Below are positions 8,956 through 36,616 of a stretch of DNA of 36,616 bases, in pieces (within the stretch, counting starts at the first letter, position 1; the number at the start of each line of letters is the position of its first letter). This stretch comes from a virus. The stretch covers positions 1-36,616 of the IMG/VR virus record IMGVR_UViG_3300046787_000429. One strand, written 5' to 3'. A program made the position numbers and the translations under genes. The notes below the pieces were generated by a model, which made no database searches, was not told the DNA's origin, and was given only the letters and a program-made list of their open reading frames with translations.

Positions 8956-9625
8956 TCTTCATAGGTTTAGATCCCTCATCGAGTAAATTATAACTATCAT
9001 CACTGGTTAACTTCAAATCATAAGCCTGAACACTCTCTCCTTTGGTAAATGGGAAATTGTAATCTTCAACTACCACTTTGGTAACTCCCAAAATTTCCAA
9101 CGGCGCACTGTAGATGTAAAACTCTTTGCTGTACTTTAAAAAATCAAACAGTTGCGCCATTTGCTTTTTAGGGAAACAATCCTCAGCAGATCCTTTTATC
9201 AAACTCCCCATTAAAACACCCGTAACCTGAAATTCAAAATCTTTACGACTCCATCGCTCTTTGATTGTTCCAATAAGCTTTTCGCCTTGTTTGGCAACAT
9301 TTCGTTTTACGATGTTGTTACCCGAACTTATGTTTATCATAGGCTCGTATGGAAATAGCCATTTTTGCCCACCTTCAGTAAAACTAAAAGACAGTGGAAA
9401 AAACTGTTCTTGTTCCGACTTTATATCATCAGCCTGATTAATTCTAAAGCTGGCATTAACAGAGCCTTGAACTACCTTGTTTTCATTGGGCAAGGGCAAA
9501 AAAGGAATCTTGGGCAAAACGTGTTTGCTTAATTCATTTTGTACAATCTGGGTGCGTTGGTATGTTCCAACGGAATCAGACCCCATCAAGCTCAAAAAAA
9601 CAATATCTTTATTTGTCAGTTCCAT
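8948..9625 (-). CDS. DUF6046-like tail protein (Mu N/gp43 position)
   Basis: This 225-aa protein has no obvious enzymatic motif. It shows conserved-looking blocks YQRTQIVQNELSKHVLPKI, IKERWSRKDFEFQVTGVL and VEDYNFPFTKGESVQAYDLKLTSDD, typical of a tail family of Bacteroidota phages that I believe is DUF6046. It sits between the tape measure and the hub gene, where Mu has gp43. A tail-hub connector function is inferred from place only. The family name is from memory. Confidence 0.55.
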   Translation of the reverse strand: MELTNKDIVFLSLMGSDSVGTYQRTQIVQNELSKHVLPKIPFLPLPNENKVVQGSVNASFRINQADDIKSEQEQFFPLSFSFTEGGQKWLFPYEPMINISSGNNIVKRNVAKQGEKLIGTIKERWSRKDFEFQVTGVLMGSLIKGSAEDCFPKKQMAQLFDFLKYSKEFYIYSAPLEILGVTKVVVEDYNFPFTKGESVQAYDLKLTSDDSYNLLDEGSKPMKNV

Positions 9626-28635: not shown

Positions 28636-29081
28636 TTGTAACGATGTTTAACAATTCCGCTTAATGCTTTAATCAGTTTTTCGAGTTCCTGTGGTTCCAT
28701 ATCCTTGAGCTTCTTTTTAACGGGAGATTTATCACTTTGTAAAAAGGCACTCAATCGGTCGAGGTCTGGAACTTCGCCCCACTTTTCGGAAGGCTTAACC
28801 CACTGCATCTGATAAAGTAACGAAAGGATTACTTTGTGCTTTGAGTTGGTTTTGTCAAAAACTGCCCAGTTTTCCGTTGGTTCGTTTATTAGTTTGCTAC
28901 CCGTTTGAGCCAGCATTATTTTGACGGCTTGGTCGTGGGTGATGCTTTTTAAGCTCGTGCAGCTCGTATCGCCAGTAACCCATTGTACCCACTCGTTTTT
29001 GGTTTCTATTTGGTAAGCGCAATTTTGCATGATACGCTTGATTTGAAACGGAGTGATTGGTTTTTCTTTAGTTGCTGTCAT
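28632..29081 (-). CDS. GemA/gp16-like protein (DUF1018)
   Basis: This 149-aa protein has ITPFQIKRIMQNCAYQIETKNEWVQWVTGDTSCTSLKSITHDQAVKIMLAQTG (9-61) and a later QMQWVKPSEKWGEVPDLDRLSAFLQS...KKLKDMEPQELEKLIKALSGIVK. This matches the gp16/GemA family of Mu early genes: an N-terminal helical domain, a 'W....g...d...l..fl' link and a C-terminal helix. In Mu, GemA affects host gene expression and DNA topology. It overlaps the lipoprotein gene end by 14 nt. Confidence 0.75.
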   Translation of the reverse strand: MTATKEKPITPFQIKRIMQNCAYQIETKNEWVQWVTGDTSCTSLKSITHDQAVKIMLAQTGSKLINEPTENWAVFDKTNSKHKVILSLLYQMQWVKPSEKWGEVPDLDRLSAFLQSDKSPVKKKLKDMEPQELEKLIKALSGIVKHRYK

Positions 29082-29292
29082 TTTTTAAACGGTTTTTTTC
29101 TTCTAAAATCAATGAGTCAATTAGATGCTGTCTTTGTTGAAGGCTTAATCCTTCTTTAACATCCATTAGGTCTTTTAAGTAGCCTAATTTTGCTTTTCTT
29201 AAATCATACTGTTCGATTTCAAGTTCTACGTTTGACTTTTTACAACTAATCAAAGTCAATGCTAGTACTAGGGTCAATAATGCTTTTTTCAT
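29068..29292 (-). CDS. Small lipoprotein in the early operon
   Basis: This 74-aa protein has a lipoprotein signal ending LISC17 (MKKALLTLVLALTLISC). A charged helical tail follows (KKSNVELEIEQYDLRKAKLGYLKDLMDVKEGLSLQQRQHLIDSLILEEKNRL). It follows the first tRNA-like element by 22 bp. An outer-membrane coiled-coil lipoprotein in an early operon might block superinfection or alter the envelope. Confidence 0.6.
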   Translation of the reverse strand: MKKALLTLVLALTLISCKKSNVELEIEQYDLRKAKLGYLKDLMDVKEGLSLQQRQHLIDSLILEEKNRLKNDSN

Positions 29293-29314
29293 TTGTCGTT
29301 TGTTTTAAAATTAG

Positions 29315-29359
29315 CTCCCGAGGCGGGATTCGAACCCGCAAGAACCTTCATGCTCGGGA
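29315..29359 (-). ncRNA. tRNA-like minihelix A
   Basis: A perfect 7-bp acceptor-like stem, TCCCGAG (29359-29353) with CTCGGGA (29322-29316), is stacked on a perfect 5-bp T-stem, GCGGG (29339-29335) with CCCGC (29327-29323). The loop TTCGAAT is the standard T-loop. A 13-nt linker replaces D-arm, anticodon arm and variable loop. A discriminator G (29315) follows and no CCA is encoded. It lies between two early genes on their strand. It is no normal tRNA, since no anticodon stem can be drawn. The acceptor plus T-arm is the minimal RNase P substrate. Confidence 0.6.
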
Positions 29360-29379
29360 TACCGAACTAACTCAACCTA

Positions 29380-29580
29380 TTATCCTTTATACGTTGCTTT
29401 CGTGTGTTTTTTGAATCTTGGGTTTTCGATCACCTGCCTTTTGTAGGTTCTGAAAGCCCGGTTTTCGGCATCGGATAAATCCTGTTTGTCTATCCAATTC
29501 CCGTTTGCATCTTTGTAAACTTCCTTTCCGTTCACCTCGTAGCTTTCATGGTCTGTTACCGGTATTATTGTTACGCTCAT
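29380..29580 (-). CDS. 66-aa hypothetical early protein
   Basis: This small protein (MSVTIIPVTDHESYEVNGKEVYKDANGNWIDKQDLSDAENRAFRTYKRQVIENPRFKKHTKATYKG) has a beta-hairpin start and a basic helical end. Proteins of this form occur in early regions of Bacteroidota phages. It ends 20 bp before tRNA-like element A. No function is known. Confidence 0.6.
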   Translation of the reverse strand: MSVTIIPVTDHESYEVNGKEVYKDANGNWIDKQDLSDAENRAFRTYKRQVIENPRFKKHTKATYKG

Positions 29581-32862: not shown

Positions 32863-34965
32863 TTATAAATAGTTGTTTATGTTAGTTCTTGATTTATTAT
32901 AGTCGTCTTGTTCTTGGTTCCAGTTGGTAGTGAGTTGTTTTTTTTCTTTGATAACTTGAACTTCGATAAGTTCTTGAGTTTTCGTTTGGAGACGGTTTTC
33001 GCTTTTTCGGTCTTTGTGTTGACCTCGGGAATCCGTCAGTAAATGCTTGGCCAGTGTGTCATTCAAAAGTGGGTTGGTAAACAAAGCCTCCAAAGATTGA
33101 ATGTTACTTTGTCGTTCCTCCGTGATATACTGCATCACGTTTGAATTGTAGTTTTTAACCTCTGAAAGTTTGAGCGCATCGCCTTCGGTACGTTCTGCGA
33201 GTGCCATTGGCTGGATGTGCTTTTGTTCCAATAGAAATTCGTAGGTTCCTACGACATCAACCAGTTTACCGTTGCGGGAATTGGCATTGGTAACCAAAAC
33301 CTTTGACAAATCTTGTGGATCATATTGCACTGCCCAGTCCAGGTGCGCCAATTTTCTAAAATTCAAATCAAATGAATCATAAGCCAATGTTTGACCGTTA
33401 ATCGTTGGTGTTAATCCTTGACCCTGTAGTCGATTGGTGTAATTTGTGGTTTCACCCAAATATTTTAAGTACATTGGCAAGGTTAATTCGCTTTTAAACT
33501 CCGTTGAAACGGCTTCCCATTGCGAAACATAGGCGTGGCGTTTTTTGGCTCGGTCGGCTTCTACTGCCGCGATCAATTGTTGACGACAACCTTGCTCGTC
33601 AGGAAATTGATTTTTGATTTTATTCATATACTCACTGTTAGGCTGTGAACTGCTTCCGGAATTCACGTTATGTCCTGACCAGTTGTCAAACATTTGGCAA
33701 TACTCTTTGTTGAAGCGGTTAAAAAACGGCTCAATGATCTTGGCTTTGGCATTCTTAACCTTTGCAGGCGTGTAGTGAACAGAACAAGCCTCATAAAGTG
33801 GTTTTAACGTTGTCTTTGCATAATTATCCGATTGCAATTGATAAGGGCGGTAATAAGCTCCAAATAACTCCTGTGAATGTTGAAAAGCGTTACGCATTGC
33901 TTCCTTAATCAAAGCCGGTGTTTCATGGGTTCCTATGGCGTAGCCAATGGGGTATTTATTGAATGGATCAACTACCATAACAATCGTCAAGCGGTTGTGA
34001 TAGGAAGTGGTTGAGTACCCTGCTTTGTTGGTTTCTGTTTTTTGGTATAATAATTCTGCATCCCAACCGTCAAGCGTCCAATACAACATTGGTTTAGTCG
34101 GAGCGGTTCTTTTGTTTTGCATCAGCACATTGTTCGAAAGAGCATTCGAACCTTTTCGACCCGCAAAGACTATGAGGTTACTTTTTTCTTTCCTGTTGGC
34201 AACAGTCTGGGCTGTGATTGTTGACCAGTTAATCCGTTCTGCTACCATGTTGTATAAGTTAGCTACTTGTGTGTTGTCAAGGTTGGTGTGTTTGGCTAGG
34301 AGTTCGTCAATAAGTGCCATTTGATCGTTATCTTTTACCTTCGCCGCGTTTTGGTTTTGAAGTCTTCCAGAGATCAATCCGGCATAACTGTACTTTTGAT
34401 ATTCCGCTAAACGAATGCGTAAACCTCTTGAGGTAGTTGGCAGTTTATGAGCTACATCACGAAAAGCGTTCACATCATTCGTTAGGCTTTGCCAAATATC
34501 AATTTGGGTTGCTCCAAGTGCTTTGGCGTATGCTTTACGGTTGGCTTTGATTTTGATAACAGTATTCAGAACCGAGGCGTTATAGGTGTACGTTTCAATC
34601 AAATCTAAATCGAGCTTGCGGTTGTCCTCACCATAGGTGTAAGCGGCGTAAAAATCAAATGCTTTGCGGTCGGCTTCATAATGTTCAGCAAACCAAGAGC
34701 GTTTTATTTCAGTTTTTGGTGACCCAAACTTTACGGTTAGTTTATCTCTCCAGTCTTGGGATAGGGAAGAGAATAGCACAAGGGCATCGTAATTTAGAGA
34801 GGCGCGGCGAAGTTGAGTTTCGGTGCAGGTTTTTGAATTAACCCTACCATTCAAAGCTTTATAGCTAATCACCCTCAAAGATTCAGGATGTGGGTTACGG
34901 TCAAAAGTCAAAAAGCTGATTTTCACGCCAAGCTTGTTATTGTAATATTCGAATGGTGTTTCCAT
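32863..34965 (-). CDS. DDE transposase (MuA-like)
   Basis: This 700-aa protein has a retroviral-integrase-type core in the middle. Asp299 lies in LYWTLDGWDAELL, Asp380 in YQLQSDNYAK and Glu412 in AKIIEPFFNRFNKEYC, the DDE triad. Between them are VVDPFNKYPIGYAIG strands. The N-terminal third is helical and basic (site-recognition region), and the C-terminus after 600 is Gln/Lys-rich, probably the MuB-contact tail. Size and neighbours match MuA. It cuts and joins phage ends for integration and replicative transposition. Confidence 0.92.
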   Translation of the reverse strand: METPFEYYNNKLGVKISFLTFDRNPHPESLRVISYKALNGRVNSKTCTETQLRRASLNYDALVLFSSLSQDWRDKLTVKFGSPKTEIKRSWFAEHYEADRKAFDFYAAYTYGEDNRKLDLDLIETYTYNASVLNTVIKIKANRKAYAKALGATQIDIWQSLTNDVNAFRDVAHKLPTTSRGLRIRLAEYQKYSYAGLISGRLQNQNAAKVKDNDQMALIDELLAKHTNLDNTQVANLYNMVAERINWSTITAQTVANRKEKSNLIVFAGRKGSNALSNNVLMQNKRTAPTKPMLYWTLDGWDAELLYQKTETNKAGYSTTSYHNRLTIVMVVDPFNKYPIGYAIGTHETPALIKEAMRNAFQHSQELFGAYYRPYQLQSDNYAKTTLKPLYEACSVHYTPAKVKNAKAKIIEPFFNRFNKEYCQMFDNWSGHNVNSGSSSQPNSEYMNKIKNQFPDEQGCRQQLIAAVEADRAKKRHAYVSQWEAVSTEFKSELTLPMYLKYLGETTNYTNRLQGQGLTPTINGQTLAYDSFDLNFRKLAHLDWAVQYDPQDLSKVLVTNANSRNGKLVDVVGTYEFLLEQKHIQPMALAERTEGDALKLSEVKNYNSNVMQYITEERQSNIQSLEALFTNPLLNDTLAKHLLTDSRGQHKDRKSENRLQTKTQELIEVQVIKEKKQLTTNWNQEQDDYNKSRTNINNYL

Positions 34966-34981
34966 TTGGGTTTATTATTTG

Positions 34982-35022
34982 TTCCCGACCAGGACTCGAA
35001 CCTGTAAGTATGCCACTCGGGA
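34982..35022 (-). ncRNA. tRNA-like minihelix B
   Basis: TCCCGA (35022-35017) pairs with TCGGGA (34988-34983), stacked on a T-arm CAGG/CCTG (35004-35001, 34993-34990) with the standard loop TTCGAGT. A 12-nt linker replaces the rest of a tRNA. It lies 16 bp before the transposase start, on its strand. It shares the 5' stem TCCCGAG and the layout with element A, 5.7 kb away. Pairing is less perfect than in A. Confidence 0.55.
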
Positions 35023-35046
35023 GGAATTACTATATTTACCGTCTCA

Positions 35047-35166
35047 CTAAAGTTTTTGAGGTTCGCTAAACGTGATACTTACTATTTTCCCGCCTTTTAG
35101 GGTTATAGTTTCGATTACTTCTGTCGTGAAATCTTCGTTCACGTGGTGGATGATCTGTGTTTTCAT
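35047..35166 (-). CDS. 39-aa hypothetical early protein
   Basis: The frame MKTQIIHHVNEDFTTEVIETITLKGGKIVSITFSEPQKL lies 3 bp after the Ner-like gene and 24 bp before tRNA-like element B. It is predicted as beta-strands (TEVIETITLKGGKIVSITF). The operon position supports it, but no family is known. Confidence 0.5.
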   Translation of the reverse strand: MKTQIIHHVNEDFTTEVIETITLKGGKIVSITFSEPQKL

Positions 35167-36353: not shown

Positions 36354-36616
36354 AAATAATGTTTAAATAGGCTTTAAATCCCTTTTAAATGGTGGTTTTA
36401 TAGGTGTTTGTATGCTGTTGTGGTAGTTCGTGGCTTATAGCGGTAATTTAAGGCTAATTCAACGGTAGCATAATGGTAGTTAACAGAAGCAAAAGGAAGT
36501 ATTGTTTTTATTCTGTTTTCGACCTTTTTTCCTGTGAAGTATTGGTTTTGTTGGCTTTTTCGACCTTTTTTATATTAGTTACTTTGGTATTATTGTTTTA
36601 TAGCCCATATCTTTAC
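36354..36616. other. Gene-free right end
   Basis: No credible open frame is seen here. There are three TTTAAAT words (36362-36392), repeats of the GGTAGTT and CGGTA type around 36420-36480, and the TTTTCGACC pair. The segment looks like a transposition end. The exact phage end and target duplication could not be recognised. Confidence 0.4.
36516..36571. repeat. Direct repeat at the right end, candidate transposase sites
   Basis: TTTTCGACCTTTTTT occurs at 36516-36530 and 36557-36571, a 15-bp identical pair at 41-bp spacing. Mu-like right ends carry several transposase-binding sites of about 20 bp at such spacing. The word CGACC is rare in this A+T-rich stretch. It is the best candidate for end-binding sites in the window. 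Confidence 0.5.

Follow-up and report, generated by a model that had tools for sequence, protein, structure and literature searches.

In the early operons of Mu-like phages of Bacteroidota, a family of tRNA-like elements occupies a conserved slot, and one member of this family, element A, is present in the viral DNA analyzed here (36,616 nt in total, called the window). Element A is real and lies on the minus strand at 29359-29316, where a 7-bp acceptor stem and a 5-bp T-arm are formed with 12/12 Watson-Crick pairs. We infer that it is a non-decoding tRNA mimic within the early polycistronic mRNA and serves there as a cis-acting signal for processing, and give this reading a probability of roughly 0.6. 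An earlier note on this DNA had described the 7-bp acceptor stem, the 5-bp T-arm, the TTCGAAT loop, a 13-nt linker and the Watson-Crick nature of all 12 pairs, and this description holds when the element is read on the minus strand.

Element A and its position in the early operon

The window is a Mu-like phage of Bacteroidota, encoding a MuA-like transposase (phrog_310), a MuB-like protein (phrog_296), a DUF3164 protein, an S24-type repressor, a terminase and a portal protein. Element A is situated between genes of 66 and 74 aa and has the same orientation as the early operon. It thus has the position, between co-directional genes, at which tRNA punctuation would release an mRNA by processing. 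The features are listed below.

29380..29580, minus strand: 66-aa gene upstream of element A (cluster c10; gene map)
29360..29375, minus strand: 5' leader of element A, member of the conserved block GTTAGTTAATTCGGTT (alignment and element list)
29353..29359, minus strand: 5' acceptor strand TCCCGAG (N1-N7; sequence, pairs covary in relatives)
29340..29352, minus strand: 13-nt linker CATGAAGGTTCTT, replacing D-arm, anticodon arm and variable loop (same linker in L130 and L133)
29323..29339, minus strand: T-arm GCGGG-TTCGAAT-CCCGC, 5 bp plus loop (sequence, covariation)
29316..29322, minus strand: 3' acceptor strand CTCGGGA (N66-N72; both acceptor strands present and covarying)
29314..29315, minus strand: discriminator G73 (29315) and C74 (29314), then T and A (host pre-tRNA 3' signature, CCA not encoded)
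29293..29314, minus strand: A-rich 22-nt leader from C74 to the next ATG (N73-to-ATG distances across elements)
29068..29292, minus strand: 74-aa gene downstream of element A, with a lipoprotein-like start, in a hypervariable slot (gene map)
34983..35022, minus strand: element B, TCCCGA-GTGGCATACTT-ACAGG-TTCGAGT-CCTGG-TCGGGA, then A73 (34982) and C74 (34981) (sequence)
32863..34965, minus strand: MuA-like transposase gene, with its ATG 16 nt past N73 of element B (phrog_310, E 4e-30)

Of the canonical tRNA features, element A displays the 7-bp acceptor stem, the 5-bp T-arm with its T-loop and a host-like 3' end. Sequence and predicted fold also contain the feature of minihelix-type RNase P substrates, a coaxial 12-bp acceptor/T stack with a T-loop. 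The anticodon loop (7 nt on a 5-bp stem) is absent and only the 13-nt linker is found, therefore element A was rejected as a working tRNA. At element A, no tRNA was reported by ARAGORN, and Rfam gave no family at gathering score in the window, including RF00005. For the 74-aa gene, no match was obtained in Pfam or PHROGs. Within the leader block GTTAGTTAATTCGGTT (29360-29375, minus strand), stop codons are present in two frames together with a GG at -4/-3, and the block overlaps the -8 to -3 region contacted by the RNase P protein (PMC11143913).

No perfect element of the A kind occurred in 150 simulated double-strand windows, while the real window has one; its tRNA-like set comprises solely element A and the imperfect element B. 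Folded alone, the 47-nt element A RNA adopts exactly the acceptor/T-arm structure (-19.0 kcal/mol). The shuffle z-score of this fold is only -1.57, and due to this modest value the fold energy alone is not convincing. When 111 nt of surrounding sequence are included, the 5' acceptor strand pairs with the leader in the minimum-energy fold. This predicted competing hairpin means that energy does not settle the fold of element A; the comparison with relatives does settle it, and in the relatives the hairpin of the window is not kept. A role of this hairpin as a switch is disfavored as well, since the leader TTCGG stays unchanged where the acceptor turns into CCTGAG.

Element B, located before the transposase gene, has a 6-bp acceptor stem, and its T-arm forms 4/5 pairs. 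Among the B-type elements, 94/99 cells are paired, with double changes (counted by script). Directly upstream of element B, a conserved block GTAAATATAGTAAT is found (window 35023-35070, minus strand), which is also present in L123, L127, L134, L137 and L139 and is preceded by ATTACTAT in most relatives. By eye, the inverted words ATTACTAT/ATAGTAAT resemble an operator or early promoter. In L139, a further B-type element (9083-9127), perfectly paired over 6 + 5 bp, is located farther upstream of the transposase gene and before another small gene. Near the right end of the window (36450-36490, plus strand), CAACGGTAGCATAATGGTAG looks D-loop-like by eye and may be due to chance.

Conservation of the fold among related phages

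The related loci (n=22) comprise 20 viral loci obtained by transposase searches, which are blind to the element, L130 from a MuB search and the window. A tRNA-like element in the same slot and on the same strand is carried by 17/22. Strict A-type elements in the slot that follows the DUF3164 gene are present in 16/22, four of these loci (L137 and L139-L141) being mutually close relatives, and L129 has a tRNA-Lys-like form in the A slot. Counting the A slot or the position just before the transposase gene, 19/22 loci have an element; the window has both, and L134 and L144 have the B-type element only. Among the 22, no element was found in L138, L142 and L143, the contig of L143 barely reaching the B slot, and this absence from 3/22 loci indicates that the element is not essential. 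A pattern scan added ten more contigs with the element, an eleventh match (L207) being the contig of L135. Less closely related members occur in the Elizabethkingia phage TCUEAP3, in Porphyromonas phages and in hankyphage p00, and the prophages L199 and L202 probably carry members too. In the Winogradskyella phage Peternella_1 no clear element was seen, none was found in MT835523 (L146), and a match in L151 was dismissed as chance.

With 19 elements aligned without their linkers, 97.8% of the cells are paired; other alignments misplaced some rows, and the shifted row of L129 was counted as is. The covariation score is 0.682 in comparison to 0.204 in shuffles (0/500 reach it) and 0.12-0.17 when slid, a comparison that favors pairing since the 5' strand was picked as the best-pairing 7-mer. 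The enrichment test makes the same best-7-mer choice on shuffled loci. Here, 20 strict elements were found in 28 loci (415 kb) against 0.9 expected, with a maximum of 3 in 40 shuffles. For linkers of up to 15 nt, the same loci contain 6 elements against 0.025 expected. Enrichment and covariation together rule out a chance hairpin. The acceptor/T-arm fold is, judged from the aligned sequences, under selection; the earlier note had proposed this on the basis of pairing and had named covariation among its checks, and compensatory changes turned out to be abundant, with 10/12 pairs changed on both sides.

A minihelix model gives 66-77 bits on the A elements, which are its training set, and 33.5 bits on element B of the window, which lies outside the training set. 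In 100 unrelated viral contigs, drawn from a wide T-arm pattern scan that was itself uninformative, it stays at or below 31 bits. Across 395 genomes of the class, the sole strong match is the L130 prophage and the remainder are genuine tRNA ends. A chromosomal tRNA-like family was rejected, the weak genome matches being genuine tRNA-Leu or tRNA-Pro ends.

The only constant part across the elements is the acceptor/T stack. The middle part differs between members, some having a linker of just 12 nt and others a complete tRNA-like form, and linker lengths span 12 to 102 nt. In the fuller forms a D-arm is present and a normal 7-nt anticodon loop is absent. For hankyphage p00, a hairpin replaces the anticodon loop, and its two lineages differ without loss of pairing. 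A long hairpin is found in L128, the Porphyromonas phages have a 3-nt loop, and in L123 U33 is lost. Matches to RF00005 at gathering score were obtained for L123, L128, L129, L147 and L148. Almost none of the family is able to decode. A working tRNA as the general explanation would be suggested by L129, the form nearest to one, which is called tRNA-Lys(UUU) by ARAGORN and also matches in Rfam. The missing anticodon of element A and the lack of a normal 7-nt anticodon loop in the fuller forms contradict this explanation, whose probability is close to nil.

A GG is present in 13/13 short linkers, which are not all independent (permutation mean 6.5; 0 of 20,000 permutations reach 13). The GG in the linker of element A (29346-29345) may dock on the T-loop and form contacts like those of G18/G19 in the tRNA elbow, which is recognized by RNase P, RNase Z and others (PMC4810234, PMC4919913).

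At the 3' end, C74 is present in 30/30 elements tallied and an encoded CCA in 0/30; the lack of an encoded CCA after N73 is a feature of RNase Z substrates. In the tRNA genes of three Bacteroidota genomes (L164-L186, L214-L243; 60 distinct tRNAs), C74 is found in 60/60 and CCA in 4/60. Judged by sequence, the elements copy the host pre-tRNAs at their 3' end. Between N73 and the ATG, the median distance is 21.5 nt (IQR 21-22) over the 26/30 elements with a called ATG within 60 nt, and it is constant although the downstream genes belong to many families. The gene right after the A slot (29068-29292 in the window; 24 related loci) is a small accessory gene which differs among phages, although a few families recur; searches on the families of these downstream genes gave nothing informative. 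Given this variation between phages, the element marks a gene-exchange slot.

A proposed processing signal and competing explanations

In the proposed mechanism, the linker GG would dock on the T-loop and build the elbow. RNase P would cut at N1, where the acceptor stem begins, and RNase Z after N73. The downstream mRNA would then open with a short leader that is A-rich and unstructured, and a CCA-tailed tRNA-like structure would form the end of the excised minihelix or, with a slow RNase P, of the upstream RNA. Element B might act likewise just upstream of the transposase gene. The acceptor/T stack is the part bound and measured by RNase P (PMC4919913), its elbow is recognized by RNase Z (PMC4810234), and the known targets of RNase P cleavage include certain mRNAs as well as the M3 and C4 RNAs of phages (PMC11143913). 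In three host genomes, genes for the RNase P RNA (rnpB) and the nucleotidyltransferase are present in 3/3 and for RNase Z in 2/3; the genome in which no RNase Z match was found is a fragmented assembly.

The processing reading is supported by the covariation, the enrichment, the same slot and strand, C74 without CCA, the spacing, the linker GG and the host enzymes. It is weakened by the predicted competing hairpin, the 3/22 loci without an element, the one host genome without an RNase Z match and the imperfect T-arm of element B. The earlier note had regarded element A as a minimal substrate of RNase P and tRNA 3' enzymes; the N73-C74 signature, the linker GG and the host enzyme genes fit this proposal. 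The note had treated element A by itself, and its membership in a family at a conserved slot, with minihelices and full-length tRNA-like forms, emerged from the relatives. Of the three roles the note had offered, punctuation of the mRNA in cis is favored by the fixed 21-22 nt to the next ATG despite differing downstream genes, and competition for tRNA enzymes in trans is kept as a rival.

The same spacing would likewise suit an element that is never cut and hence also counts against the processing reading. Such an uncut mimic could work on translation or via a bound protein, either by insulating the start site against the gene upstream or by binding a host tRNA-binding protein or the ribosome near the start codon. 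At a constant 21-22 nt from the ATG, the element lies just beyond a ribosome footprint, the leader in between is A-rich and unstructured, and Bacteroidota make little use of Shine-Dalgarno pairing. However, plain insulation needs neither a T-loop nor C74 nor a host-like 3' end, and the constraint observed is tRNA-specific, which renders this explanation unlikely. Still less likely is that the excised RNA serves as a decoy in trans, occupying tRNA enzymes or absorbing a host defense toxin directed at tRNA acceptor ends. Phage tRNAs are known in counter-defense and the element is plausibly a substrate for tRNA 3' enzymes, but an RNA acting in trans could be encoded anywhere, and the fixed ATG spacing as well as the two operon positions would be left unexplained.

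The range of forms from near-complete tRNA to minihelix and the hypervariable downstream gene would also fit captured tRNA genes in decay, or DNA conserved as a boundary for recombination at the gene-exchange slot, as would the conservation of leader and trailer between phages with different flanking genes. Under decay, however, neither the upkeep of 12 pairs by compensatory changes nor C74 in 30/30 elements would be expected, and DNA homology would not covary as RNA does; this origin is considered very improbable. For the processing reading, a more general statement can be put forward tentatively, at somewhat less than even odds: a whole lineage of DNA phages would use minimal non-decoding minihelices as portable punctuation, which RNase P and RNase Z of the host would excise, so that every early gene downstream would obtain a processed mRNA with a constant leader of ~22 nt and a CCA-tailed tRNA-like RNA would be left over.

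Known systems and biological meaning

The closest parallel in function is the tRNA punctuation of animal mitochondria, where tRNA structures between genes are excised by the 5' and 3' tRNA enzymes and thereby free the mRNAs (PMC8601606). In contrast to the working tRNAs used there, the phage elements are non-decoding, belong to a bacterial DNA phage, and their cleavage is presumed. The M3 RNA and the C4 antisense RNA of P1/P7 are likewise phage-encoded non-tRNA substrates of the host RNase P (PMC11143913). C4 is an antisense RNA of the immunity region, whereas the elements described here precede start codons, possess a T-arm and come from another group of phages; the P1/P7 C4 RNA family gave no Rfam match in the window at gathering score. 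The tRNA-like structures of viral and long noncoding RNAs also recruit tRNA enzymes, by mimicry of the acceptor/T stack and the elbow (PMC4810234). These structures represent 3' ends of RNA viruses or eukaryotic RNAs, in contrast to the phage elements, which are internal to mRNAs and go down to a 44-nt minihelix.

Integration-derived tRNA gene fragments are partial tRNAs as well and show a T-arm and an acceptor strand in the vicinity of mobile DNA (PMC9897764). They are by-products and usually contain one acceptor strand, whereas both strands of element A covary and the phage has a transposase and not a tRNA-targeting integrase. An origin of element A as an integration-derived 3' tRNA fragment was rejected because both acceptor strands are present and covarying.

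In the papers on hankyphage (PMC12135933) and Flavobacterium prophages (PMC7761591), tRNA is not mentioned, and in that on Porphyromonas phages (PMC10367356) tRNAs are named as prophage insertion sites. A search of open-licence papers revealed no description of such elements. Hence, tRNA mimicry and tRNA punctuation are already known, and the minihelix form in the setting of a phage operon is, as far as found, new.

If the processing reading is true, tRNA punctuation would extend from organelles to phage operons, and the elements would show which part of a tRNA is retained by evolution once decoding is irrelevant. As a graded natural set, with full tRNA-like forms at one end and 44-nt minihelices at the other, the elements would be suited to study the in vivo requirements of bacterial RNase P and RNase Z. 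The family would represent an overlooked class of RNA, mostly missed by ARAGORN, in widespread gut, oral and environmental phages such as hankyphage and the Porphyromonas and Elizabethkingia phages. Within these phages, the element would flag the slot at which accessory early genes are exchanged.
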